Below, one piece after another: positions 12,436 to 27,936 of a DNA stretch of 64,000 nt. This DNA is from Anaeromyxobacter soli. GTDB lineage: Bacteria; Myxococcota; Myxococcia; Myxococcales; Anaeromyxobacteraceae. The position numbers and the translations under genes are program-made. The stretch is from positions 1 to 64,000 of the forward strand of contig NZ_JAKZLF010000015.1 in assembly GCF_022808855.1 (NCBI RefSeq), in the 5' to 3' direction. Every line of letters begins with the position of its first letter. Position 1 is the first letter of the stretch. The notes beneath the pieces were generated by a model that had not been told where the DNA came from, ran no database searches, and worked only from the letters and a program-made list of their open reading frames with translations.

Positions 12436-13117
12436 GCGTCGCGGCGAGGCCCACCGCGGCGGCGAGCGCCCCGAGGAGCGTGAGCGGCGGGAGCCGGCCC
12501 GGCCACGTCGCCGGCGCGAACCAGCCGGGCGCGCCGAGCGCGGCGCAGTGCACCCCGACGAGCGCGAGCGCGCCCTGGGCCGCCAGGCGCGCGGCGCCGG
12601 CGGCGAGCGCCGCCGGGCGCGCGAGCCGGAGCGCCCCGAAGGCGACGAGGGCGCTCGCACCGCACAGCACGGCGAGCTCCCCGGAGGCGCTGAGCCGGCC
12701 CGACGGCGCGTAGAGGCTCGCGAGGTAGGCGGGGCGGAGGAGCACCACCGACGCGAGCGCGTGGAGCGCCGCGGCGAGGAGGGCCGCCGTGCGCGCGGCG
12801 CTCCGCCACGCGGCCCGCGGACGCGCCGCGGCCGCGCCGACGAGGAGCACCGCGACGACGGCGAGCGCCTTGTTCGTCACGTACAGCGGCACGCTCGCGA
12901 GCGGCTCTCCCTTCACGAGGACGTACCGCACGAAGGCGTAGGCGAAGCAGCCCGCGAAGGCGAGCGCGCCCGCCACCGCCGGCTTCCACCCGAGCGCCGC
13001 CTCGCGGGCCGGGGCCGCGGGAGCGGCGAGCGCGGCCCGGAGGGCGGACCGCGCCGCGCGGGGCCGCGCGCGGGCGGAGAGGCGGGCGCAGCCGCGGGAG
13101 GCGTGGGGCGCCGTCAC
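12332..13117 (-). CDS. Six-helix membrane protein, possibly ferric-reductase-like
   Basis: 261-residue integral membrane protein with about six hydrophobic helices. Single histidines in the third (ALHALASVVLL) and fifth (GVHCAALG) helices recall haem-b ligands of ferric reductase-like membrane domains, but the usual His pairs are not complete, so this is tentative. Its GTG start at 13117 shares bases with the stop of the preceding metallophosphoesterase gene (GTGA), implying translational coupling. The last 34 residues are charged and lie antisense to the end of the Old Yellow Enzyme gene. Role unknown; the operon context suggests the cell envelope. Confidence 0.65.
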   Translation of the reverse strand: MTAPHASRGCARLSARARPRAARSALRAALAAPAAPAREAALGWKPAVAGALAFAGCFAYAFVRYVLVKGEPLASVPLYVTNKALAVVAVLLVGAAAARPRAAWRSAARTAALLAAALHALASVVLLRPAYLASLYAPSGRLSASGELAVLCGASALVAFGALRLARPAALAAGAARLAAQGALALVGVHCAALGAPGWFAPATWPGRLPPLTLLGALAAAVGLAATLSARGGTASARARPARASPPRAAGSADREAARGP

Positions 13118-14442
13118 GGGCGCCTCCGGAGCAGGGCGACCCCGGCGATGGCGAGGAGCGAGGACAGCGTCGCGGCGCCGCCGCCGAGACCGCAGCCGCC
13201 GCCGGCGCTGCCGCTCGCCGCGCCCGCGGCCGGCGGGGCCGGCGTGTCGGTCTGCCCCGACCCGCCCGGCGTCGGCCCCGGCGTCGCGGGGGTCTCGGCG
13301 AGCGGCGAGGGGTGCGTGAGCGTCACGGAGTCGAACGCGTTGCCGTCCACGTCCCGCGCCTCGAGCGTGAGCGTGTTCGCCGTCACGTCCACCTCGACGA
13401 AGTGGTGTGTCGCGCGCGAGAACGCGGTGAAGTCGCTCGCACCCACCGTGTAGAGCGGCGCGCCCGCGCCGCCGGTCACGACGTACGTCACGCCGCCGTC
13501 TGCGGGCTGTCCTCCCACCATCGGCCGGCTGCGCTCGTAGTCGTGATCGTGGCCGTTCAGCACGAGATCCACGCCGTACTTCTCGAAGATGGGGCCCCAC
13601 CGCTGGCGCAGCCCCGTGTCGCTGCCGTGCTCGCCGGAGGAGTACGGCGGGCGGTGGAACGCGACCACCGTCCAGCGGATGTCGGGGTTGCTCGCCGCGC
13701 GCGCCAGGTCGGCCTCGAGCCACTGGTCCTGGGCGTCGCCGGCCGTGCCGGCGGGCTCGGTGAAGAGCACGACGAAGTGGGTGTTGCCGTAGTCGAACGA
13801 GGAGTACGCCTCGTCCTCGTAGCCGGCGGCGCTCGGCGCGTGGCGCGGCAGCGCGAGCTGCGCGAAGAAGAGGCCGCCGCCGATGTCGTGGTTTCCGGCG
13901 GCGGACACGAACGGAGTCGTCGAGACGAGGGGCTCCATCGTCGTGAACCACCCGTCCCAGAGGGACTGCGTCCCGCCGCTCTCGACGAGGTCCCCCGAGT
14001 CGATCGAGAACGCCGGCTGGGACCGCTGCACGGCCGCGCGCACCTGCGCGCGCGCGGCGTCGTCCGTACGGCTGTCGCCGAAGGCGGCGAAGCGGAAGCT
14101 CGCGCTCGCCGAGGGCGTCGGTCCCGTCGTGAACGTGCGATCCGCGGACCAGCTCGCCGCGCTGCCGCACCGGAAGTGATAGGCGGTCCCCGCGGAGAGG
14201 CCGGTGAGCTGCGCCTCGTGCAGGTACGATCCCTGGTACGCGACCGACGCCGCAGCCTGCGTCTGGCCGTAGCCGGTGTCGCCCCCGTACTCGACCGCGC
14301 CGGTGGGCTCGCTGGAGCGCCAGGCGACGGTCATCGTGGTGTCGGTCGGCCCCTGCCAGCCGAGGTGGATCTGCGACGGTGCCGCGAGCGCGGGCGCCGC
14401 AGCCAGAAGGGTAGGCAGAAGGAGGAAAACCCGTGCATTCAT
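13114..14442 (-). CDS. Surface metallophosphoesterase (purple acid phosphatase-like) with MYXO-CTERM tail
   Basis: 442 residues. Signal peptide 1-20, a fibronectin-III-like N-terminal domain (about 22-108), then a calcineurin-like phosphoesterase with the dinuclear-metal motifs GDSR (D123), GD (150-151), GNHD (183-186), H263 and GHDHDYE (297-303). The C-terminus (about 414-442) is GG-C-rich, then a helix and RRRP, matching the MYXO-CTERM sorting signal of Myxococcota, which places the enzyme on the outer surface. The ATG at 14442 follows GGAGG. It lies between a CotH-kinase lipoprotein gene and a membrane protein gene. Phosphomonoester hydrolysis is the likely activity; substrate unknown. Confidence 0.9.
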   Translation of the reverse strand: MNARVFLLLPTLLAAAPALAAPSQIHLGWQGPTDTTMTVAWRSSEPTGAVEYGGDTGYGQTQAAASVAYQGSYLHEAQLTGLSAGTAYHFRCGSAASWSADRTFTTGPTPSASASFRFAAFGDSRTDDAARAQVRAAVQRSQPAFSIDSGDLVESGGTQSLWDGWFTTMEPLVSTTPFVSAAGNHDIGGGLFFAQLALPRHAPSAAGYEDEAYSSFDYGNTHFVVLFTEPAGTAGDAQDQWLEADLARAASNPDIRWTVVAFHRPPYSSGEHGSDTGLRQRWGPIFEKYGVDLVLNGHDHDYERSRPMVGGQPADGGVTYVVTGGAGAPLYTVGASDFTAFSRATHHFVEVDVTANTLTLEARDVDGNAFDSVTLTHPSPLAETPATPGPTPGGSGQTDTPAPPAAGAASGSAGGGCGLGGGAATLSSLLAIAGVALLRRRP

Positions 14443-14673
14443 CCGACCTCCGGACGGGAGAGCGGGACCTCGCCCGATCACCCGTGTCCCGGTTCGAACG
14501 CCCGCCCGGCCGGGAAACATCCCCTGGCGCGTGAGAGGCCACGAGCGGTTCCCTCCTCCGAGGGGAGGCAGCGGTCCCCGATCTCTCGAGTCGCATGCAA
14601 TCGCCCGCGATGGCAGAGCGCATCACCGCTCGAGTCGAGCGAGGGATGCGTCGCAGGCTCAGGGGGCAGCACT

Positions 14674-16257
14674 TCAGTAGCGACCGGCCAGGTACGCCCA
14701 GCGCGCCGCGATCCAGCCGCGGGTGTACGCGAGCTCCTCCTCGCGCGACGGCCAGCCCACCCGCCCCTCTCGCGCGAAGAACGCGGCTTGCGCGTAGCGC
14801 CAGCGCGCCTCGTCGCGCGCCCCGGCGGCCTCGGTCTGCGCGGCGAGCGTGTCGAACGCGGCGAGCACGTCCGCGACGGGGACCCGCTCGCGCACCGCGG
14901 CGCCCAGCCGCGCGCGCGTGCCGGCGGCGAACGGCGGCGCGAGGAGCCGCCGGAAGAGGCCGTTCTCCCAGACGAACTCCTCGCCCGAGTCCGCCGCCTG
15001 GTGCTTTGTTTGCCACTCCTGGCCCAGGCTCGCGCCGTAGTCCCAGATCGTCGCGCGCCACGGACCGCCGGCGGGGTCGTGGAAGAGGAAGACGTTCTTC
15101 CGGGCGCAGTCGGAGGAGCGCGCGAGCATCACCATCACCCACCAGTCGCGCAGCTCGTCGACGTCGGCCACGGCCGCGAGGCGCGCCGCGAACGTCGCGT
15201 CGTCAGCGGTGGCGACGAGCTCGACGAGGGCGTCGAGATCGTCGAAGGCGCCGGGCTCGCCCTGCAGCGGCGTGCCCTCCTCCTTCTCGTAGCCGTCGTG
15301 CCAGGTGAGCTTCGGCTGGCCCTCGTTGCTGGTCGCGTAGAAGTTCGCGAGGTTCGTCTTCGACTGGTACAGGTTCCCGTCGCCGTCGAGCCCGTGCTCG
15401 CTCAGCACCTGCCCGCCGATCTTCTCGCTCATCATGTAGACGCCGCGGTACTCGCCGTTCACGTAGAGCACGGCGCTGGCCGTGCGGACGTCGATGGGCC
15501 GGTCGGCGACGCGCCTCCAGAGCCCGAGCGCCAGCCGATCGCGGATCTGCGTCACGTCGTCGAACGTCGTGACGAGCAGGAGCTTCTTCCGCGCGGGGAA
15601 GCCGAGCAGCGGATCCGAGAACTGGGCGGTGTCGGGGAACGAGAGCGTGTAGCTCTTCTTCGGGAAGTCGGCGGAGCGCGTGCCGCGGTACTTCACCTCG
15701 ATGCCGCGGGTCCGGCCGCGGTAGGTGAGCGAGGCCGGCACGTAGGTGGTGAAGTTCACGGTGCCGTCGACGCGCAGGTGGAAGACGGGCAGTCCGTACT
15801 CCTCGGTGTAGCGGGCGGGGTCGGGCGGAGCGTTCCCGGGCGCGTCCCACCGATCGGCCACGCCCACGCGGAGGAGCGCCTCCCCGTCGCCGGGCACGCG
15901 CACGACGACGTCGTACACGCCCGCATCGGCCAGCCCGGTCTTCCAGGAGATGGTCCCGGCCGCGAGGTCGAGCAGCGCTCCTGCGGGCAAGCCCTCGAGC
16001 ACCGACGAGGCGGGCAGGGGCTCGTTGCCCGAGCAGGCGACCGTGAGCCGGAGCGCGTCGCCCTCCAGGATCCAGGCGGGTCCGGTGATCTTCATCCCGC
16101 ACGAGGTGGGCGGAGGCGGAGGTGGAGGAGGAGGCGGCGGCGGAACGATCGGGAGGCCGTCGCCGTCCGAGGTGTCGTGGATGGGAGGGGAGCTGCACGC
16201 CGCCGATAGCGCGAGCAGGGCGGTGGCCGCGAGCAGGGTGGCCTTCCGTCGGGTCAT
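14674..16257 (-). CDS. CotH-family kinase lipoprotein
   Basis: 527 residues. A lipoprotein signal peptide ends SAAC (C21), followed by a linker with twelve consecutive prolines, an immunoglobulin-like region (about 50-130), and a CotH kinase domain (about 165-500). CotH features seen: KYRGTRSADFPKKSYTLSF, YVNGEYRGVYMMSEKI, LYQSKTNL and the metal-site segment ATIWDYGASLG. Spore-coat CotH is an atypical protein kinase; homologues in non-spore-formers are secreted and largely unstudied. The ATG at 16257 follows GGAGGT. It begins a minus-strand operon with the surface phosphoesterase (231-base gap). Confidence 0.88.
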   Translation of the reverse strand: MTRRKATLLAATALLALSAACSSPPIHDTSDGDGLPIVPPPPPPPPPPPPTSCGMKITGPAWILEGDALRLTVACSGNEPLPASSVLEGLPAGALLDLAAGTISWKTGLADAGVYDVVVRVPGDGEALLRVGVADRWDAPGNAPPDPARYTEEYGLPVFHLRVDGTVNFTTYVPASLTYRGRTRGIEVKYRGTRSADFPKKSYTLSFPDTAQFSDPLLGFPARKKLLLVTTFDDVTQIRDRLALGLWRRVADRPIDVRTASAVLYVNGEYRGVYMMSEKIGGQVLSEHGLDGDGNLYQSKTNLANFYATSNEGQPKLTWHDGYEKEEGTPLQGEPGAFDDLDALVELVATADDATFAARLAAVADVDELRDWWVMVMLARSSDCARKNVFLFHDPAGGPWRATIWDYGASLGQEWQTKHQAADSGEEFVWENGLFRRLLAPPFAAGTRARLGAAVRERVPVADVLAAFDTLAAQTEAAGARDEARWRYAQAAFFAREGRVGWPSREEELAYTRGWIAARWAYLAGRY

Positions 16258-16456
16258 GCTACCTCCGGCCTCTCCGCTCACCGTGGAGCGGCGCCGCGCA
16301 GGGCGCACCTGCTCGACTGGGAGCCGACCCGGCGGCGCCTCGGACGGTGCACCCGGCGTGGGCGGCGGGCCGCCCACCGGGGAGCGCGACCCGGAGGCGG
16401 GCGCACGGCGGGGTGAAGAAGTAGCCGCTCCGGCCACGGCCGCGTAGGTTCGTCCC

Positions 16457-17308
16457 GTGCGCATGGGCCGCTACGACATCACCACCGTGGTCGACGCCTG
16501 GTTCGCGCTCGACGGGGGGGCGATGTTCGGGATCGTCCCCCGGCCACTGTGGGAGAAGAAGCTCGCCCCGGATGCGCGGAACCGGATCCGGCTCGCCGCG
16601 CGCTGCCTCGTCGCGATCGACCGGGACGCGCGCCGCGTCATCGTCGTGGACGACGGCTTGGGCGACAAGTGGGACCCGAAGCGCTCCGACATCTACGCGA
16701 TCGATCGCTCCGCCGGAGGGCTCGACGCCGGGCTGGCCCGGCTCGGCCTCTCGCGCGACGACGTCACGGACGTCCTCCTCACCCACCTGCACTTCGATCA
16801 CGCCGGCGGCACGACCCGGCGCGGCGCGGGCGGCCGGCTCGAGCTGTCCTTCCCGCGGGCGACGTACCACCTGCAGCGGCGCAACTGGCTGTGGGCACAC
16901 GCGCCGTCCGACCGCGACGCGGGGAGCTTCCTGCCCGACGACTTCGCGCTGCTGCAGCACTCGAACCGGCTCCACCTCATCGACGGCGACGAGTCGCCCT
17001 TCCCCGACGTGGACCTCATCCTCTCCGAGGGCCACACCGTCGGGCAGCAGCTCCCGCGGTTCCGCGGGGAGGGCACGCACCTCGTGTTCTGCGGCGACAT
17101 CATCCCGACGCACGCGCACCTCCGGCCGAGCTGGGTGATGGGGTACGACCTGTTCCCGGTCACCACCGTGGAGGAGAAGAAGGTGCTCCTCGCCGAGGTG
17201 CTCGAGGACGAAGGCGTGCTGGTGTTCGAGCACGATCCGCTCATGGCGGGGTGCCGGCTGCGCGAGGAGGCGGGGCAGCCGGTGTTCCACGAGGCGGTGG
17301 AGCTTTGA
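16457..17308 (+). CDS. Metallo-beta-lactamase-fold hydrolase
   Basis: 283 residues with the zinc-binding THLHFDHAGG motif near residue 113, a GHTVGQQ histidine, FCGDIIPTHAH and a final EHDP. The order fits the glyoxalase II / lactonase-like branch of the superfamily. Start may be GTG 16457 or ATG 16463, two codons later. It is divergent from the CotH operon and transcribed towards the methyltransferase gene. Lactonase, glyoxalase or another hydrolase activity cannot be separated from the sequence. Confidence 0.85.
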   Translation: MRMGRYDITTVVDAWFALDGGAMFGIVPRPLWEKKLAPDARNRIRLAARCLVAIDRDARRVIVVDDGLGDKWDPKRSDIYAIDRSAGGLDAGLARLGLSRDDVTDVLLTHLHFDHAGGTTRRGAGGRLELSFPRATYHLQRRNWLWAHAPSDRDAGSFLPDDFALLQHSNRLHLIDGDESPFPDVDLILSEGHTVGQQLPRFRGEGTHLVFCGDIIPTHAHLRPSWVMGYDLFPVTTVEEKKVLLAEVLEDEGVLVFEHDPLMAGCRLREEAGQPVFHEAVEL

Positions 17309-17456: not shown

Positions 17457-18623
17457 ATGGAAGAGCAGAAGGTCACCGTCAGCCGCCGGGGCGCCGAGCG
17501 CCTCGCCGCCGGGCACCTGTGGATCTACCGCGCGGACGTGGAGAAGCTGCCCGCGGCCGAGGCTGGCGACGTCGTCGCGGTGGTGGACGGCCGCGGCCGC
17601 TTCCTCGCGAAGGCGTTCTGGTCGGCGCGCTCCAAGATCGCGCTGCGCATCGTCACGCGCGACGAGGTGCCGGTGGACGAGGCGTTCCTCGCCGAGCGGC
17701 TCGAGGCGGCGGTGGACCTGCGCCGGCGCGCGTTCGGCGACGAGCGATTCGTCCGAGTCGTCCACGGCGAGGCGGATCTCCTGCCCGGCCTCGTGGTCGA
17801 TCGGTACGGCGACGCCGCGGTGCTGCAGACGCTCGTCCCCGCGACCGACCGGCGCAAGGCGCTCCTCGCCGAGCTCGTCGCCGGGGCGCTCGGCGTACGG
17901 ACGATCGTCGAGCGGAACGACGTGCGCGTCCGCGAGCTCGAGGGGCTCGCCCAGGTGAAGGGCGTGCTGCGCGGGGAGGCGCCGGGCCCGGTCGTCTACC
18001 CCGAGGGCGCGGTGCGCATGCGCATCGACCTCCTCGCCGGGCAGAAGACCGGCGCGTTCCTCGACCAGCGCGAGAACCACCTGCGCGCCGGCGAGTACGC
18101 GCGCGGCCGGTGCCTCGACTGCTTCAGCTACGCGGGCGGGTTCGCGCTGCAGCTCGCCCTGCGCGCCGAGCAGGTCACGGCCGTCGAGATGCAGCCCACC
18201 GCCGCGGGGCTCCTGCGCGAGAACGTGTCGCTGAACCGGGCGGCGAACGTCGAGGTCGTCGAGGCGAACGCGTTCGACTACCTGCGCGACCGCGCCGAGG
18301 AGCCGCCCGCCTACGACCTGGTCGTGCTCGACCCCCCTGCCTTCGCGAAGAACAAGGACGCCCTCGCCGCGGCGCGGCGCGGCTACAAGGAGGTGAACCT
18401 CCGGGCGATCCAGATCCTCAAGCCGGGCGGGATCCTCGTGACCGCCTCGTGCAGCTACCACCTGGCCGAGGCGATGCTCGAGGAGCTCGTCCTCGACGCC
18501 GCGAACGACGCGGGGCGGCGCGTGCAGCTCCTCGAGCGCCGCGGCGCGGGCCGCGACCACCCCGTGCTGCTCGGCGTCCCCGAGACGCGGTACCTGAAGT
18601 GCTTCGTCCTGCGGGTGGTTTGA
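17457..18623 (+). CDS. RlmI-like 23S rRNA cytosine-C5 methyltransferase
   Basis: 388 residues: an N-terminal PUA RNA-binding domain (about 4-80), a linker domain, and a class I SAM methyltransferase domain (about 180-388) with the catalytic-site sequences VLDPPAFAKNK and TASCSYHL. E. coli RlmI makes m5C1962 in 23S rRNA; length and order match. The GGAGG ribosome site at 17442-17446 partly overlaps an inverted repeat (CTCCGG 17426-17431 / CCGGAG 17440-17445), so translation may depend on local RNA folding. Specific target inferred from homology. Confidence 0.88.
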   Translation: MEEQKVTVSRRGAERLAAGHLWIYRADVEKLPAAEAGDVVAVVDGRGRFLAKAFWSARSKIALRIVTRDEVPVDEAFLAERLEAAVDLRRRAFGDERFVRVVHGEADLLPGLVVDRYGDAAVLQTLVPATDRRKALLAELVAGALGVRTIVERNDVRVRELEGLAQVKGVLRGEAPGPVVYPEGAVRMRIDLLAGQKTGAFLDQRENHLRAGEYARGRCLDCFSYAGGFALQLALRAEQVTAVEMQPTAAGLLRENVSLNRAANVEVVEANAFDYLRDRAEEPPAYDLVVLDPPAFAKNKDALAAARRGYKEVNLRAIQILKPGGILVTASCSYHLAEAMLEELVLDAANDAGRRVQLLERRGAGRDHPVLLGVPETRYLKCFVLRVV

Positions 18624-18737: not shown

Positions 18738-20882
18738 ATGATCCGGCCCGATGAGCTCGGCACCGGCCCGCTCGACGCGCTCGCCCGCGCGCCGCTCCTC
18801 GCACGCCTCGACGCGGCCGAGCGCGCCCGGCTGCTCGCCCGCGCCGAGCTCGTCACGGTCCCGGCCCGCACGCGGGTGCACGCGGACGCCGACGCCGGGC
18901 GAGGCCTCGACCTCGTGCTGGAGGGGGCCGCCACGCTCCGCAGCGCCGACCTGCCGCTCCGGCGCCTGGGGCCCGGCGACCACTTCGGCGAGCTCGCGCC
19001 GCTCTCGGCGGACCACCGCGGCGAGACCGTCACGGCGGAGACCCCGCTCACGGTGGCGCGGCTCTCGGCGCGCGGCTGGGACGCGCTCGTCCGCGACGAC
19101 CCGGCCCTCGCCGCCAAGCTCGCGACCGCCCTCGCGGCGGCGCTCTCGGAGGAGCTCCGGCGCGTGACCGGCGAGATGGGGCTCCTGCTCCGCGGCCGCT
19201 CGCTGCCGCGCGCGCCCGAGGTGACGGTGCACCTCCTCGGCGAGGTCCGGCACGTCCGCACCGGGACCCGCCTCGCGGAGCTGCTCCCGGCCGAGCTCGA
19301 CGGCGCGCTCGTCGTCGGCGGGCTCCTCGCGCACAAGCCGGTCTCGCTCGCGACCCCGGTCTTCACCGACACCACGGTCGCGCCGCTCACCCTCCGTCAC
19401 TGGGAAGGGCGCACCATCTACGCCCACTCGGTCGGGCTCCTCCTGCTCGAGGCGGCGCACCAGCTCGCGCCCGCGCTCGCCGTCCGCATGGGCCCGTCGC
19501 GCGGGACGCGGCAGGTCGTCCTGGTCCACGGCCTCGAGCCCGCGGAGCGGCCGGCGTACGCCGCGCACCTCGCGGAGCAGATGGCGCGCCTCGCCCAGGC
19601 CGACGCGCCCTTCCGGCTCGAGTACTGGCCGACCGACGAGGCCGCCGCGTACTTCGCGGAGCGCGGGTGGGAGGACGCGGCCCGGCTCCTGCGCGTTCGA
19701 CGGCAGGCCACGGTGCGGCTCGTCTCGTGCGGCGAGCTGTACGCGCTCTCGATGGGCCCTCTCCTCCCGTCCACCGGCGCGGTGCGCGGGTTCCGGCTCG
19801 AGCCCGCCGAGGAGGGGCTCGCGCTCGATCTCGGCGACCGCGATCCGCGCAACGGCCACCGCGGCGGAGCGGCGCGCCGCGGGCAGCCCTCCCGCGACGG
19901 CGGGATGGTCGCGGAGCACCAGCGCTGGCTCGAGGCGCTCGGGGTGACGAGCGTCGGCGCCTTCAACGACCTGTGCATCTCCGGCCAGGTGTCGCAGCTC
20001 ATCCGGGTGGCCGAGGGCTTCCACGAGAAGCGCATCGGCCAGATCGCCGACGCCATCGCGACCCGCCGCGACCGCCTGCGGGTCATCGCCATCGCGGGCC
20101 CGTCCTCGTCGGGCAAGTCGACCTTCATCAAGCGCCTCACCGTCCAGCTCCAGATCGACGGGGTGAACCCGGTGGCGCTCGGCCTCGACGACTACTACGT
20201 GGACCGCGAGCGCACCCCGCGCGACGACGCGGGCGAGTGGGACTTCGAGGCGCTCGAGGCGATCGACCTCCCGCTCCTCCAGGACCACGTCCGCCGCCTC
20301 ATCGCCGGCGAGCCGGTGCGCACCGCGCGCTACGACTTCCTCACCGGCACGAGCCACCCGGACGGCGGCCCGGTCATCCAGCTCCGCCCCCGCGACGTGC
20401 TCCTCGTCGAGGGCATCCACGGCCTCGACCCGCGCCTGCTCGACGACATCCCGCCGGCGGGCTCGCTCTACCGGGTGTTCATCCACCCCGCCACCACCCT
20501 GCCCTTCGACCGGCTCACGCGCACGTCCGCGACGGACCTGCGGCTCCTCCGGCGCATCGTGCGCGACCGCCACCGCCGCGGGTACGGGGCGGCGGAGAAC
20601 ATCCTGCGCTGGCCCTCGGTGCAGGCCGGCGAGCGGGAGCACATCTTCCCGCACCAGCACGAGGCGGACGCGGTGTTCGACTCGTCGCTCGTGTACGAGC
20701 CCGCCGTCCTGAAGGTCTTCGCCGAGCGGTACCTCCTGGAGGTGCCCCCCAACCACGCCGCCTACCCGACCGCCCACCGGCTCCGCTACCTCGTCGATCG
20801 CTTCGTCTCCATCTACCCCGACCACGTCCCGCCCACCTCGCTCCTGCGCGAGTTCATCGGCGGGAGCGGGTTCGAGTACTGA
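18738..20882 (+). CDS. cNMP-binding / TGS-ThrRS-like / uridine-kinase-family fusion protein
   Basis: 714 residues in three parts. Residues about 16-130 resemble a cyclic-nucleotide-binding (CAP-family) fold with GDHFGELAPLS. Residues about 160-400 resemble the TGS plus ThrRS-editing-like region that precedes some bacterial nucleoside kinases. Residues about 440-714 form a phosphoribulokinase/uridine kinase domain with Walker A GPSSSGKST (K460) and the LDDYY and LVEGIHGLD motifs. The C-terminal two-thirds match known 550-residue nucleoside kinases; the N-terminal cNMP-like domain is extra and suggests nucleotide-messenger control. GGAGGAG lies 10 bases before the ATG. The histidine kinase gene starts 8 bases after its stop. 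Confidence 0.85.
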   Translation: MIRPDELGTGPLDALARAPLLARLDAAERARLLARAELVTVPARTRVHADADAGRGLDLVLEGAATLRSADLPLRRLGPGDHFGELAPLSADHRGETVTAETPLTVARLSARGWDALVRDDPALAAKLATALAAALSEELRRVTGEMGLLLRGRSLPRAPEVTVHLLGEVRHVRTGTRLAELLPAELDGALVVGGLLAHKPVSLATPVFTDTTVAPLTLRHWEGRTIYAHSVGLLLLEAAHQLAPALAVRMGPSRGTRQVVLVHGLEPAERPAYAAHLAEQMARLAQADAPFRLEYWPTDEAAAYFAERGWEDAARLLRVRRQATVRLVSCGELYALSMGPLLPSTGAVRGFRLEPAEEGLALDLGDRDPRNGHRGGAARRGQPSRDGGMVAEHQRWLEALGVTSVGAFNDLCISGQVSQLIRVAEGFHEKRIGQIADAIATRRDRLRVIAIAGPSSSGKSTFIKRLTVQLQIDGVNPVALGLDDYYVDRERTPRDDAGEWDFEALEAIDLPLLQDHVRRLIAGEPVRTARYDFLTGTSHPDGGPVIQLRPRDVLLVEGIHGLDPRLLDDIPPAGSLYRVFIHPATTLPFDRLTRTSATDLRLLRRIVRDRHRRGYGAAENILRWPSVQAGEREHIFPHQHEADAVFDSSLVYEPAVLKVFAERYLLEVPPNHAAYPTAHRLRYLVDRFVSIYPDHVPPTSLLREFIGGSGFEY

Positions 20883-20890
20883 GGGCCGGG

Positions 20891-22669
20891 ATGCCCTTCA
20901 ACGGCAGCGACTCGCGCCGTCTCCGCCGCTTCCGCGAGCTCGTGGAGGAGACCGCGCGCGCGTGCGCCCCGGAGGACGCGGCGGCGCTGCGCACGGAGCT
21001 CGACGAGCTCGTCGACGAGCGCGCGCTCGCGGAGGCGGTCATCGACCGGACCGGCGCGCTCGTGGTGGTGCTCGATCGCGAGGGCTACGTCCGCCGCTGG
21101 AACGCCGCCTGCGCCCGCGCGACGGGGTACTCCGCGGAGGAGATGCTGGGCCGGTCGCTGTGGGACCTCATCCTCCCCGAGGAGCGGGACGGGGTCCGGG
21201 CCACCCTCGACGCGCTCCGCGCCGGCCGCGCCACCACCACGCACGAGAACCACTGGATCGCGCGCGACGGGCAGCGCCGGCTCGTGTCCTGGAGCAACGC
21301 GTCGCTGCTCGACGAGGCCGGCGAGGTCCGGGCCATCGTGGCGACGGGCCTCGACATCACCGAGCGGACGCAGGCGGAGGTCGCGCTGCGGGCGCAGGCG
21401 AAGCGGCTCGAGGCGCTCGCGGAGGCGTCGCGGGTGTTCGCCTCCGGCCTCGACTACAAGACGACCCTCGACACCGTCGCGCGCCGGCTGTGCGAGCTCA
21501 TCGGCGACGGGGCGCTCATCCGCGTCGTCTCGCCGGACGGCAACTGGCTCGTCCCGGTCGCGGTCTACCACCCCTCCCCGGAGCGGGCCGCGCTGCGCCG
21601 GCGCATCATCGCCGCCGCCCCGCAGCGGACCGACGAGGGCATCACCGCGGGCCCGCTCGCGACCGGGCGGACGCTGCGCATCCCTGCGCTCTCCCAGGAG
21701 AGGGTGCGCAACGAGATGAAGCCGGAGTACTGGCCCTACCTCGAGGGCGTGACGAGCCTGCTCATCGCGCCGCTCGCCCAGCGCCACGAGGTGTTCGGCC
21801 ACATCACGCTCATGCGCGACGCAGGCGGCGCGCCGTACACCGCGGACGACGAGGCTCTGCTCGAGGACCTCGCCCACCGCGCCGCGCAGGCGATCGAGAA
21901 CGCGCGGCTCTACTCCGACGCGCAGAACGCGGTCGCGGCGCGCGACGAGTTCCTCTCCATCGCCTCGCACGAGCTGCGCACCCCGCTCACGGCGCTCCGC
22001 CTCGCGCTCGGGAACATGCGGCGGGTCACCTCGCGCGAGGCGCTCGAGCGGCTCCCGCCCGAGCACGTGGAGCGCGTCCTCGGGGCTGCGGAGCGGCAGG
22101 GACAGCGGCTCGAGAAGCTCGTCGCGGCGCTGCTCGACGTCTCGCGCATCCACATGGGGAAGCTGGACCTCGACCTCGAGGAGGTGGAGCTCGGGGCGGT
22201 GGTGACGGACGCGCTCGCCCAGCTCGAGGACGAGGCCTCGCAGACGGGCTCGACGCTCTCCGCCTCGGGCACGCCGGTGCGCGGCGCCTGGGACCGGCTG
22301 CGGCTCTCGCAGGTCGTGACGAACCTGCTCTCGAACGCCGTGAAGTACGGGGCCGGGAAGCCCGTCGAGGTGAGCTACGGCCCCTCCGCCACCGGCGCGG
22401 TGCTCGTGGTCCGCGATCAGGGCATCGGGATCTCCGCGTCGGATCAGCCGCAGATCTTCGAGCGCTTCGAGCGGGCGGTCTCGTCCCGCAACTACGGCGG
22501 GCTCGGGCTCGGGCTCTACATCGTGCGGCGGATCGTGGAGGCTCACGGCGGCACCATCCGCGTCGAGAGCGCGCCGGGGAAGGGCTCCACGTTCCAGGTC
22601 GAGCTGCCGCTCCGGCCGCTCTGCGCCCGCCCGGGCCACGGCGCCCTGGACCCCGCGTCCGCGCACTGA
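20891..22669 (+). CDS. PAS-GAF sensor histidine kinase
   Basis: 592 residues, no membrane helices, so probably cytoplasmic. Order: coiled N-terminus, PAS domain with PAC (about 48-160), GAF domain (about 170-345), dimerisation/phosphoacceptor helix with SHELRTP (H360), and the ATPase domain with NLLSNAVKYG (N box), DQGIGIS (G1) and GLGLGLYIVRRI (G2). No receiver domain is fused and no response regulator is adjacent, so it is an orphan kinase. The 8-base gap from the uridine-kinase fusion gene makes co-transcription very likely and hints at a shared pathway. Confidence 0.93.
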   Translation: MPFNGSDSRRLRRFRELVEETARACAPEDAAALRTELDELVDERALAEAVIDRTGALVVVLDREGYVRRWNAACARATGYSAEEMLGRSLWDLILPEERDGVRATLDALRAGRATTTHENHWIARDGQRRLVSWSNASLLDEAGEVRAIVATGLDITERTQAEVALRAQAKRLEALAEASRVFASGLDYKTTLDTVARRLCELIGDGALIRVVSPDGNWLVPVAVYHPSPERAALRRRIIAAAPQRTDEGITAGPLATGRTLRIPALSQERVRNEMKPEYWPYLEGVTSLLIAPLAQRHEVFGHITLMRDAGGAPYTADDEALLEDLAHRAAQAIENARLYSDAQNAVAARDEFLSIASHELRTPLTALRLALGNMRRVTSREALERLPPEHVERVLGAAERQGQRLEKLVAALLDVSRIHMGKLDLDLEEVELGAVVTDALAQLEDEASQTGSTLSASGTPVRGAWDRLRLSQVVTNLLSNAVKYGAGKPVEVSYGPSATGAVLVVRDQGIGISASDQPQIFERFERAVSSRNYGGLGLGLYIVRRIVEAHGGTIRVESAPGKGSTFQVELPLRPLCARPGHGALDPASAH

Positions 22670-23363
22670 GCGCGGGAGGGTGATTCCCGAACAGGCGACC
22701 GAAGCGGCGCCGAAGCGGAATCGGCGAAGCCGATCGCGTTGGCGCAGGGACCCGGCGAGCAGGGGTGGGGGCGCAGCCCTCATCATTCATGACAAGTGCA
22801 ACTCGCCGGACGAGCGGCGGGTGGTTCGACCACGGCTTCCGTGCGCATGTCGGATTCGGGCATCGACGGGGGCCGCGCACGCGCTCGTGCTCGACCCCGA
22901 TGAACGCGGGAAGGCGGCGGAGCAGGGGAGCGTCTCGTCGTGTCGAGGGGCGACGGAGTGACTTCGCGCGGGGTGCGCGCGGACTTCTCGAAGGCGCCTC
23001 CGCAGCTCGCCCCGGAGCGCGGGCTGGAGCGTCGTGGGAGGTCGACCGTATTCACCTATGGTGACAGCTATCGCCAGCGGTAGCGCCGGCCGGTGTCGCG
23101 GCTCTCCTCGCGCTAGGCGGGGCGTCCCAGTTGCGGTGGGTGAAACATTCCCCATTGACGCCTTCTCGCCCCGATTGCGCTCAGGCATACGGGCGGCGCG
23201 GGAAGGCTACTCTCGCGCACGCTTCTCGCGCGTGAAGCGCGCGCCGATCGCCTTGGGGCAACGACGAGGGTGCGCCGGAGAACGCCGCACAGACCCGAGC
23301 CTGGAGCGTCCCCGGAGCTTCGAAAATCGCGTGCTACGAAGGGTGTACTGGAGGTGCATCCCC
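22670..23363. other. 694-base intergenic region with inverted repeats
   Basis: No convincing gene. It holds several short inverted repeats: ATCGGC-GAA-GCCGAT at 22720-22734 just after the histidine kinase gene, TCACC-TAT-GGTGA at 23052-23064, a near-perfect 8-bp stem at 23067-23084, and CGCTTC/GAAGCG at 23220-23239. The composition is less GC-biased than in coding DNA. Short open frames here have atypical arginine/serine-rich products and no ribosome sites. Confidence 0.6.
23052..23084. promoter_or_regulatory. Two adjacent inverted repeats, possible operator or small RNA element
   Basis: A perfect TCACC-TAT-GGTGA palindrome (23052-23064) is followed two bases later by GCTATCGC-CA-GCGGTAGC (23067-23084, one G-T pair). 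They lie about 300 bases upstream of the HNH gene. Their role is unknown. Confidence 0.3.
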
Positions 23364-24566
23364 ATGTCTGCGCTCACTCCCGCTGCTCTCGAGTCGAACG
23401 TCCTCGCCCTGCGCCTGCGCGAGCTCGCCGGGGAGGAACGGAACGTCCAGGTCGACTTCCTCCTGCACCTCGACGAATTCGATCGGCGCCGCGCCTTCGT
23501 CGAGATCGGCCATGCGTCCCTCTGGGCGTACTGTTTGGAGGCGCTCCACCTCCGGGAGGGCGCCGCCGGCCGGCGCATCCAGGCGATGCGGGTGCTGCGC
23601 CGCTTCCCGATCCTGGAAGCTCCGCTGCGCGATGGGCGTCTTTGCCTCTCCACCGTGGCGCTCCTCGGCCAGGTGCTCACGGAGCAGAACGTGGACGACC
23701 TCCTCGCTCGCGCCGCCTTCCGGACCCGGGCCGAGGTCGAGCACCTCGTCGCCTCCGTCCAGGCGCGCACCGCTCCGCGTGCTGGCCTTCGCAAGCTCAC
23801 CGAACGCGCGCCCGCCGTGGTGAGCGCAGCGCTAGAGCTCCCGCAGGCCGAGCGGGCCGAGGTGGCTACCGCACCCGGCCCTGCGGAGCCGACCCTCGGC
23901 CCCGGTCCCACGGCCGGCGCGCTGCCGGCGCCCCCGCCCCCCGTCGCGCAGGCGAAGCGACGGGCCGAGACGCTCGCCGTCTCGGAGAGCCACTGGTCGC
24001 TCTGTGTCACCCTCGACCGCGCCTGCAAGGAGGACCTCGAGACGCTCCGGTCGCTTCTGTCGCACAAGGTCCCGGACGGCGACCTCGCGGCGGTGCTCCA
24101 CGAGGCGATCCGCTGCGCCATCGAGAAGCACGGCAAGCGCAAGGGCGCGGTCGCGCCGGAGCGGAAGACGAAGGGAGCGAAGCAGGCCACGGCTGAGCAG
24201 GCCGGGACGGCGGCCGCGGCGAAGCCTTCGGAGGGGAGGACCACGATCCCGGCGATAGTGCGCCGCGCCGTGTGGAAGCGCGACGGCGGGCGCTGCGCCT
24301 GGGTCGGCCCGGACGGCTGCCGCTGCAAGAGCCGCTGGAAGCTCGAGCTCGACCACATTCAACCCGCCTCCCTCGGGGGACCATCGACGATCGACAACCT
24401 TCGGCTCGCCTGCCGAGCTCACAATCTGCTTCACGCAGAGAGGAGCTTCGGGCGCGAGCACATGGATCGCTTCCGGCGAGAGTCGAGCGACGGGCCGACG
24501 CCGCCCGCGCACGCTGACGTGGCACCTCTGCGTCCGGTCATGCAGCTGGGGATGTGGGCGCCGTGA
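23364..24566 (+). CDS. HNH endonuclease-domain protein
   Basis: 400 residues. The N-terminal 170 are helical and resemble the region preceding HNH domains in the large actinobacterial/myxobacterial HNH family; a Pro/Ala-rich linker (about 170-200) follows, then a basic helical section. The C-terminal HNH domain (about 295-355) has paired cysteines (RCAW, CRCK), the central LELDHIQP and NLRLACRAHN. Start ATG 23364 has GGAGG 8 bases upstream. No methylase, toxin or phage gene is beside it. It may be a housekeeping or selfish nuclease; target unknown. Confidence 0.85.
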   Translation: MSALTPAALESNVLALRLRELAGEERNVQVDFLLHLDEFDRRRAFVEIGHASLWAYCLEALHLREGAAGRRIQAMRVLRRFPILEAPLRDGRLCLSTVALLGQVLTEQNVDDLLARAAFRTRAEVEHLVASVQARTAPRAGLRKLTERAPAVVSAALELPQAERAEVATAPGPAEPTLGPGPTAGALPAPPPPVAQAKRRAETLAVSESHWSLCVTLDRACKEDLETLRSLLSHKVPDGDLAAVLHEAIRCAIEKHGKRKGAVAPERKTKGAKQATAEQAGTAAAAKPSEGRTTIPAIVRRAVWKRDGGRCAWVGPDGCRCKSRWKLELDHIQPASLGGPSTIDNLRLACRAHNLLHAERSFGREHMDRFRRESSDGPTPPAHADVAPLRPVMQLGMWAP

Positions 24567-24693: not shown

Positions 24694-25710
24694 TCAGATC
24701 GACAAGAAGCCGCGCGCGGGGAAGAGCAGCACGTCCTCGATCGCCTCGGCGCCGGCGACGAGCATGAGCAGGCGGTCGAACCCGACCGCGACGCCGCCCG
24801 CGGGGGGCATGCGGCCCACCGCCTCGAGGAACGGCTCGTCGAGCGGGAACACCGGGCGCCCCAGGGCGCGACGGAGCGCCTGCTCCTCCACGAGCCGCGC
24901 GCGCTGCTCCGCCGCGTCGGTGAGCTCGGTGAAGCCGTTCGCGAGCTCGAGCCCGCCCGCGTAGAGCTCGAAGCGCTCGGCCCAGCGCGGGTCGTCCGGC
25001 TTCACCCGGGAGAGCGCGGCCATCGAGGCGGGCCAGTCGACGAGGTACTCGGGCCGCTCCACGCCGAGCCGTGGCTCGACCGCGTCGAGCATCACGCGGA
25101 AGAACACGTCGTCGAACCCCTCGCCGGGCGGTCCGGGGTCGTGTCCCGCGGCGCGGGCCGCCGCGGCGAGCCGGCCGGCGTCGCCCCCGCAGGCCGCGAG
25201 GTCCACGCCAGCGTGGCGACGGAACGCGTCCGCGACGGTGGTGCGCGGGAAGGGGGCGGCGAGGTCGATGGCGCGCCCGCCGCGGGCGACGCGGGTGCCC
25301 CCCGCGACCGCGCGCGCGCACGCCTCCAGGAGCCGCTCGAGGTCCTGCATCACGCCCTCGTAGTCGGTGCCCGCCCGGTAGAGCTCGAGCATCGTGAACT
25401 CGGGGTTGTGCGTGCGCGAGATCTCGCCGTTCCGGAACACGCGCGAGAGCTGGAAGATGCGCGGGAAGCCCTCGGCGAGGAGCCGCTTCATGGCGTACTC
25501 GGGGCTGGTGATGAGCCAGAGCGGCCGCGCCGCTCCCCCGCCCTCCGGCACGAAGGGCGCCTCGAAGGGCGACAGGTGCGGCTCCATGCCGGGCGCAGGC
25601 ACGAGGGTGGGCGTCTCCACCTCCTCATAGCCGAGGCCGCCGAGGAACCGGCGCACCTCGGTGGCGAGCCGGGCGCGCTGGCGGGCGCGTTCGCGTCGGG
25701 AGACGGGCAT
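24694..25710 (-). CDS. epmA: EF-P lysine lysyltransferase EpmA (GenX/PoxA, truncated LysRS)
   Basis: 338-residue class II aminoacyl-tRNA synthetase catalytic core without the anticodon-binding domain, as in EpmA, which ligates beta-lysine to elongation factor P. Motif 2 appears as VFRNGEISRTHNPEFTMLE and motif 3 as GVAVGFDRLLML. No elongation factor P or EpmB gene is within the window, so the partner must lie elsewhere. The start chosen is ATG 25710 (MPVSRRERARQRARL); the ribosome site is poor. A hexanucleotide repeat lies 50 bases upstream of the start. Confidence 0.9.
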   Translation of the reverse strand: MPVSRRERARQRARLATEVRRFLGGLGYEEVETPTLVPAPGMEPHLSPFEAPFVPEGGGAARPLWLITSPEYAMKRLLAEGFPRIFQLSRVFRNGEISRTHNPEFTMLELYRAGTDYEGVMQDLERLLEACARAVAGGTRVARGGRAIDLAAPFPRTTVADAFRRHAGVDLAACGGDAGRLAAAARAAGHDPGPPGEGFDDVFFRVMLDAVEPRLGVERPEYLVDWPASMAALSRVKPDDPRWAERFELYAGGLELANGFTELTDAAEQRARLVEEQALRRALGRPVFPLDEPFLEAVGRMPPAGGVAVGFDRLLMLVAGAEAIEDVLLFPARGFLSI

Positions 25711-26712: not shown

Positions 26713-27557
26713 ACCCGGTCGACAAGCGGCGCGTCCGCGCCGCCTTCTCACGCTCCGCCGCGTCCTACGACGCCCGGGCCGAGGTGCAGCGCGCCGTGCA
26801 GGACCAGGTGCTGGCGCTCCTCGCCGGCGCGGCGCCGGGCGCGCGCCGCGTGCTCGACGTGGGCGCCGGCACGGGCGCGCTCCTCTCCCGGCTCCTCGCC
26901 GCGAGGCCCGGGCTCGCCGCCGCGGCCGTGGATCTCGCGCCCGGCATGTGCGGCGCCACGCGCCGCGCCGCCCCGCGGGCGGGGGTGGCCGCGGCGGACG
27001 CGGAGGCGCTCCCGTTCCGCGACGGCGCGTTCGATCTCGTGGTGACCACCTCCACGCTCCAGTGGCTGCCGCGCGTGGCGACCGCGCTCGAGGAGGCGCG
27101 CCGGGTCCTCGCGCCGGGCGGAGTCCTGTGCGTCGCGCTCTTCGGGGAGCGCACCCTCTTCGAGCTCCGCGAGGCCTTCCGCGACGCCTCCGCCGGGAGC
27201 CCAGCGCCGGTGCACCGCTTCCTCGCGCTCGAGGAGCTCGCGCGCGCGCTCGGGGCGGCGGGGCTCACGCTGGAGGCCACGCGCGACGAGGAGCTCGTCG
27301 AGCGCCACGCGGACGCGCGCGCGGTGCTCCGCGCCCTCAAGGCGGTGGGCGCGACGAGCGCCGTGCCCGGCCGCACCGGGCTCTCGGGGCGGCGCGCCAC
27401 GCTCGAGACGATCCGGCGCTACGAGGAGCGGCACGGGGGCCCGGGCGGCGTGCCCGCGACCTACCACGTGCTGTACGCGATCGCCCGGCGGCCGGCGGCT
27501 ACGTCCGCGTCGCCTCGAGCTCCTTCAGGCGCGCGCGCAGCTCCTTCTCCCGCTTGA
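26703..27557 (+). CDS. bioC: Malonyl-ACP O-methyltransferase BioC
   Basis: 284-residue class I SAM methyltransferase. The N-terminus (NPVDKRRVRAAFSRSAASYD) is the BioC signature; VLDVGAGTGALL is the SAM-binding loop. It methylates malonyl-ACP so fatty-acid synthesis can extend it to pimeloyl-ACP methyl ester. The ATG overlaps the end of bioH by 10 bases. The usual family end is near LYAIARRP; the last 20 or so residues are Ala/Ser/Pro rich and lie antisense to the end of the convergent PAS gene (59-base overlap), a likely recent stop-codon shift. Confidence 0.92.
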   Translation: MRLNPVDKRRVRAAFSRSAASYDARAEVQRAVQDQVLALLAGAAPGARRVLDVGAGTGALLSRLLAARPGLAAAAVDLAPGMCGATRRAAPRAGVAAADAEALPFRDGAFDLVVTTSTLQWLPRVATALEEARRVLAPGGVLCVALFGERTLFELREAFRDASAGSPAPVHRFLALEELARALGAAGLTLEATRDEELVERHADARAVLRALKAVGATSAVPGRTGLSGRRATLETIRRYEERHGGPGGVPATYHVLYAIARRPAATSASPRAPSGARAAPSPA

Positions 27558-27936
27558 AGCGGGCGGTCACGTCGCGGATCACCGCCGACGGCCCCAGGAT
27601 GTGCCCCGACGCATCGCGGATGAGCTGGATCGTGAACTCGATCGAGATCGTCTGCCCGTCCTTGCGGATCGCCGGGACCGCCAGGACCTCCGTGCCGTAG
27701 CGGGTGACGCCCGTCTCCATGACGCGGTTCCAGCCGTCCCAGTGCCGCGCGCGGAGCCGCTCGGGGATGATGAGGTCCATCGACTTCCCGATGACCTCCG
27801 CCGCGCTCCACCCGAACATCCGCTCCGCGCCGCGATTCCACAGCCGCAGCACGCCGTCGCGATCCGCGAACAGGACGGCGTCACCCGTCTCCTCGATGAT
27901 CCGCGCCGCGAGCGCGCCGAACCCAGGGTCGTCCAT
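27499..27936 (-). CDS. Stand-alone PAS-domain protein
   Basis: 145 residues, almost entirely one PAS fold with PAC (about 12-130): DAVLFADRDGVLRLWN, AERMFGWSAAEVIGKS and the C-terminal IRDVTARFKREKE helix. No output domain is present. It could bind a small ligand or a haem or flavin and act through protein contact, but no cofactor residues are diagnostic. GGAGG lies ahead of the ATG at 27936. Its end overlaps bioC tail to tail. Confidence 0.85.
   Translation of the reverse strand: MDDPGFGALAARIIEETGDAVLFADRDGVLRLWNRGAERMFGWSAAEVIGKSMDLIIPERLRARHWDGWNRVMETGVTRYGTEVLAVPAIRKDGQTISIEFTIQLIRDASGHILGPSAVIRDVTARFKREKELRARLKELEATRT

Follow-up and report, generated by a model that had tools for sequence, protein, structure and literature searches.

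The closest described relatives of the gene considered here are the three-domain ‘uridine kinases’. That of Thermotoga maritima (TmUK) consists of a threonyl-tRNA synthetase (ThrRS)-type domain and a uridine-kinase-type P-loop domain, a fusion also reported from Treponema pallidum; TmUK formed no uridine monophosphate (UMP), full length or truncated, and hydrolysed ATP with uridine present (PMC10248530). Sensors for cyclic nucleoside monophosphates (cNMPs) are described from other proteins. In the phosphate-binding cassette of PsPycTIR, Gly-Glu binds the ribose, Arg and the next residue bind the phosphate, and the following Ala packs on the ligand (PMC11224242). In a trypanosome PKA-type sensor that binds nucleosides, the cassette Ala is replaced by Glu and the Arg is lost (PMC10959531). 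We describe a gene of Anaeromyxobacter soli that joins a cNMP sensor to a ThrRS-like module and a kinase; it lies in a stretch of 64,000 nucleotides (contig NZ_JAKZLF010000015.1, positions 1 to 64,000) that is called the window below. The sensor-kinase fusion is real and conserved, and is a new variant within an already known, uncharacterised family; no paper describing it turned up in the open-access literature text.

The gene is a single open reading frame whose product carries, in order, a CRP-like cNMP-binding domain, a ThrRS TGS/editing-like module and a PRK/uridine-kinase P-loop domain (Table 1), according to Pfam, an AlphaFold model and fold matches in the Protein Data Bank (PDB). The model was built from 35 homologues (mean pLDDT 87.6, pTM 0.73), and its fold matches fall into three consecutive stretches: CRP, then the TGS/editing region of ThrRS, then P-loop kinases. 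For the sensor, Pfam cNMP_binding (PF00027) matches residues 40-120 (E 1.4e-8, 35.1 bits against a cut-off of 27.5), and residues 8-152 of the model match cAMP-bound CRP (Z 16.6 over 141 residues), with a CRP-type beta-roll and its following helices. Residues 161-370 match the ThrRS editing region (1tje, Z 19.4), where a Pfam tRNA_SAD match at residues 326-355 stays below its cut-off. For the kinase, Pfam PRK (PF00485) matches residues 449-563 (E 4.1e-17, 63.1 bits against a cut-off of 22), and the model matches pantothenate kinase over residues 383-654 (Z 17.7) and human UCK2 over residues 445-652 (Z 15.4). These results confirm the CAP-like N-terminal domain that the initial annotation had placed ahead of a TGS/ThrRS-like region and a kinase. 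The residues 1-140 that it named for checking do hold a cNMP-binding fold; the limits of the domain are corrected to ~12-145, with a TGS/ThrRS-editing-like module of ~210 residues following.

The fusion occurs, with no interrupting stops, in all nine Anaeromyxobacter genomes, and also in further genera of the same family and in several other Myxococcota families; because it reads through in this way, it is not a product of chance. In other families the TGS/ThrRS-like and kinase core occurs with no sensor attached. The genome scan used short peptide patterns and does not by itself establish absence outside the Myxococcota. In a tree of the kinase core, from which the sensor was left out, the fused rows form one clade of 37 (support 100/99); the root is a midpoint root and does not settle whether the fusion or the absence of the sensor came first. 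Two g3 genomes that have no sensor (G041 and G042) fall within this clade, and a sensor profile search of their loci found no cNMP domain. Judging from this nesting, we take both to have lost the sensor. Measured from where the upstream methyltransferase match begins to the stop of the kinase gene, the locus spans ~3.0 kb in g3 and ~3.4-3.5 kb in Anaeromyxobacter; the g3 loci are shorter by roughly the length of one sensor domain.

Since the kinase carries a genuine, fused CRP-type cNMP fold that has long been conserved, control by a small ligand is the natural reading, and such control is likely. We favour, at a probability of about 0.55, a ligand-gated small-molecule kinase, that is, a TGS/pseudo-editing/PRK-UCK core to which a CRP-type sensor was added, and which is perhaps linked to translation. 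A three-domain core resembling the Thermotoga/Treponema ‘uridine kinase’ would have gained the N-terminal sensor in a Myxococcota lineage. A phosphate-bearing cyclic nucleotide would bind between Glu85 and Arg94 and move the long helix (residues 122-153) that links the sensor to TGS, and this movement would switch the kinase on or off. In Anaeromyxobacter the pocket would have been re-tuned, possibly for a ligand other than cAMP.

The cassette of the window protein retains both parts assigned to ligand contact in PMC11224242, namely Gly84-Glu85 for the ribose and Arg94 for the phosphate. In place of the canonical cAMP/cGMP ending (Arg, then Ala, Ser or Thr, then Ala), all nine Anaeromyxobacter genomes have Arg-Gly-Glu-Thr; the genus cassette is FGELAxLxxxHRGETV, one genome having Tyr for the first Phe, and the canonical FGELALxxxxPRAA(S/T) prevails in the outer lineages. 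Glu96 is equated with the ligand-packing Ala of PsPycTIR by our own alignment. Since HRGETV is invariant across the genus while only 49 of 134 sensor-domain columns are, the altered loop appears to be maintained rather than decaying. The nucleoside-binding trypanosome sensor was considered as a model and rejected, the window protein keeping both Ala87 and Arg94.

Two independent observations support control of the kinase by a ligand. One is that a stand-alone cNMP-binding protein with a canonical-type cassette (GEMALFTEQSRRSA) is encoded 126 bp downstream of an unfused kinase, on the same strand, in genome G192 of f31 (L143:9538-10080); a second f31 genome with an unfused kinase (G194) has a different gene at that place. 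The other is that the sensor was lost in a lineage lacking class III cyclases: PF00211 is found in 179 of 195 Myxococcota, and neither G041 nor G042 has a match. This coincidence is suggestive only. G001 and G002 likewise gave no class III cyclase match, and other Anaeromyxobacter genomes carry PF00211 class III-like genes, at least one of which (in G003) has the usual motifs. A strict link between cyclase absence and the RGET pocket was rejected, since genomes with PF00211, such as G003, still have HRGETV. The other cNMP proteins of the window genome were set aside as evidence of cAMP signalling, their alignable cassettes lacking the canonical Arg-Ala/Ser-Ala/Thr end. A Pycsar effector was also rejected: there is no cyclase among the neighbours scanned and no PF00211 match in the genome, and PADLOC matches only the sensor domain. 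Two further cNMP proteins lie next to fusion kinases, and both placements may be chance: a sulfate permease-STAS-cNMP protein directly downstream in a Sandaracinaceae metagenome-assembled genome (L008:5480-7690) and a STAS-cNMP protein upstream in G021 (L140:19-1035).

In the kinase domain, homologues share Walker A, the LDDYY Asp, the Walker-B-like Glu and the Arg-rich lid with little or no variation. Gly537 aligns with position 93 of T. thermophilus UCK, which is Tyr in the wild-type chain and His in the 3w8r mutant; this Gly is invariant in 35 sequences. Position 93 reportedly limits the T. thermophilus enzyme to cytidine. The fusion protein also falls short of the NCBIfam equivalog cut-offs for uridine kinase (TIGR00235, 63.7 against 220.3 bits; NF004018, 70.2 against 180). 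Given the invariant Gly and the lack of UMP formation by the Thermotoga relative, phosphorylation of uridine is doubtful, and the substrate would be something other than plain uridine. Thus the proposal of the initial annotation that a second messenger controls nucleoside phosphorylation is borne out in part: the fused, conserved CRP-type fold favours the control, and the nucleoside is the doubtful half.

In the middle module the catalytic HxxxH and CxxxH motifs of ThrRS are not found; HSVGL and SMGPLL stand at the corresponding places, which were set by motif rather than by structural superposition, and they are not kept across homologues. The fold is also that of a mitoribosomal protein. With the editing motifs apparently lost and the fold so shared, binding of RNA without editing may reasonably be inferred.

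Several points weigh against the ligand-gated kinase. The HRGETV loop is unlike that of any other lineage, and Ala, Ser or Val takes the place of Glu85 in several relatives (f1 g2, g4 and g5; f6), whose sensors may therefore fail to bind. Conservation within the genus is lowest in the sensor domain, at 68.6% against 86.3% for the kinase. Class I, III and IV cyclases were sought in the window genome and none was found, and the association of sensor loss with absent cyclases is a single event. Against the link to translation, the RlmI- and EpmA-type genes are kept only within the family, the genes elsewhere being mixed from lineage to lineage.

Some of these points would fit a sensor that in Anaeromyxobacter has ceased to bind ligand and acts instead as a structural or dimerisation domain: the cassette is altered, the sensor is the fastest-changing domain, no cyclase was found in three of the nine genomes and g3 tolerates the loss of the sensor. 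We regard this as unlikely, though worth keeping in view, because the genus keeps Glu85, Arg94 and HRGETV without exception in a domain that mostly varies, a sign that the pocket is maintained, and because the sensor is the fastest domain in other lineages too. More improbable is a salvage kinase for uridine and cytidine whose sensor binds cAMP and so tunes pyrimidine salvage. It would account for the PRK family match, the UCK fold match and the canonical cassette of most outer lineages, and no other PF00485 protein was found in the window genome. A search for uracil phosphoribosyltransferase as a sign of pyrimidine salvage gave weak matches only, which are uninformative. The substrate evidence runs the other way, with an invariant Gly at the base-specificity residue, scores far under the udk equivalog cut-offs and a Thermotoga relative that formed no UMP (PMC10248530), as does the search of the window genome for cyclases, in which none of class I, III or IV was found.

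The remaining alternative is that the kinase and the histidine kinase are a dedicated signalling pair in which, for example, the kinase product or the state of the sensor feeds the histidine kinase. Here the initial annotation was right about the layout: 8 bases separate the stop of the fusion gene, whose last base is 20882, from the following ATG at 20891, and the downstream gene encodes a histidine kinase with PAS and GAF domains and no regulator beside it. All of its Pfam domains are over cut-off (PAS 52-160; GAF 188-336; HisKA 350-421, 54.1 against 26.9 bits; HATPase_c 468-575, 109.3 against 26.4 bits), as in an orthodox histidine kinase, and a Pfam scan of eight neighbours found no receiver domain and hence no response regulator among them. 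The two genes adjoin in all ten loci of Anaeromyxobacter and one close relative (g6), and with so short a gap they are probably co-transcribed in this clade. A dedicated pair is nonetheless hardly to be expected, given that the histidine kinase is absent beside the kinase in every other fused or unfused locus examined and that no response regulator is near. The initial annotation had itself named homologues without this neighbour as evidence against the pair, and such homologues are what is found outside Anaeromyxobacter and g6. In g4 an EpmA-like gene abuts the kinase, while in Anaeromyxobacter the histidine kinase (with an HNH gene as well in the window) stands between them, so that the histidine kinase looks inserted. 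From this distribution it appears to be a late, clade-specific addition outside the core function.

Table 1. Features of the fusion kinase locus, in window coordinates
Feature	Position	Strand	Evidence
RlmI-type rRNA methyltransferase (PUA_3 + SAM methyltransferase), upstream neighbour across the family	17457..18623	+	Pfam, synteny
Fusion kinase gene, 714 amino acids: cNMP sensor + TGS/ThrRS-editing-like module + PRK/UCK-type kinase	18738..20882	+	Open reading frame, Pfam, AlphaFold and fold matches
CRP-type cNMP-binding domain, residues ~12-145	18771..19172	+	PF00027 over cut-off; Z 16.6 against cAMP-bound CRP
Phosphate-binding cassette, residues 83-98, FGELAPLSADHRGETV; Glu85 and Arg94 kept, Gly95-Glu96 replacing the usual Ala/Ser-Ala/Ser	18984..19031	+	Alignments
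TGS + ThrRS-editing-like module, residues 160-370; His/Cys editing motifs apparently lost	19215..19847	+	Z 19.4 against 1tje; motif comparison
P-loop kinase domain, residues 385-714; Walker A 454-461, LDDYY 483-487, Gly537, EGIHG 558-562, Arg-rich lid 599-614	19890..20879	+	PF00485, motifs
PAS-GAF-HisKA-HATPase_c sensor histidine kinase, 592 amino acids; clade-specific partner	20891..22669	+	Pfam; adjacency in 10/10 Anaeromyxobacter/g6 loci only
EpmA/GenX-like class II synthetase paralogue, convergent downstream neighbour in most family loci	24694..25710	-	Pfam PF00152, synteny

The rRNA methyltransferase and EpmA-like neighbours, together with the editing-like module, suggest a link of the kinase to translation. 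No conserved neighbours were found at the loci examined outside the family. As a separate observation, RbfA-like and RtcB genes lie directly downstream of the fusion kinase in G068 (L131:10227-11737), another RNA- or ribosome-related neighbourhood. The HNH-endonuclease gene of the window (23034-24566) lies between the histidine kinase and EpmA-like genes; its relative in G005 (L121) is encoded on the opposite strand, upstream of the methyltransferase gene, and the gene therefore seems mobile. Elsewhere in the window, a CotH-kinase gene stands beside a purple-acid-phosphatase-type metallophosphatase gene (13114-16464, minus strand), and a short PAS-only open reading frame (27499-27936, minus strand) may belong to a longer sensor gene.

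The three-domain ‘uridine kinase’ family is without known activity, and a natural version controlled by a sensor offers a handle on both its substrate and its timing. The Anaeromyxobacter pocket variant, kept in a genome where no cyclase was found, offers a case in which to test whether CRP-type domains bind ligands other than cAMP. In a narrower and rather improbable form of the ligand-gated kinase, the conserved RGET pocket would recognise some cyclic nucleotide that is not cAMP, and this would directly gate a kinase whose pseudo-editing module binds tRNA or the ribosome; if true, a second messenger would control a translation-linked phosphorylation so far undescribed in bacteria.

Compared with known systems, the fusion protein is closest in layout to TmUK, by the published description of that protein, in having TGS and an editing-like module before the kinase (fold matches to ThrRS at 161-370 and to P-loop kinases at 383-654), and differs in its cNMP sensor, none being described for TmUK. 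With T. thermophilus UCK, human UCK2 and the pantothenate kinase CoaA it shares the kinase fold, Walker A, the LDDYY Asp, the Walker-B-like Glu and the Arg-rich lid; unlike T. thermophilus UCK, it has Gly537 where that enzyme has Tyr93. Its middle module has the TGS and editing-domain fold of the N-terminal editing region of ThrRS and of a mitoribosomal large-subunit protein (chain 7 of mitoribosome entries), whereas the His/Cys motifs of ThrRS are not kept and the module is joined to a kinase instead of a synthetase core. The sensor resembles the regulatory domains of PKA and PKG, CRP and PycTIR in its CRP-type fold and in the Gly-Glu and Arg of its cassette, and departs from them in having Gly-Glu after the cassette Arg and a ThrRS-like and kinase module as its output.

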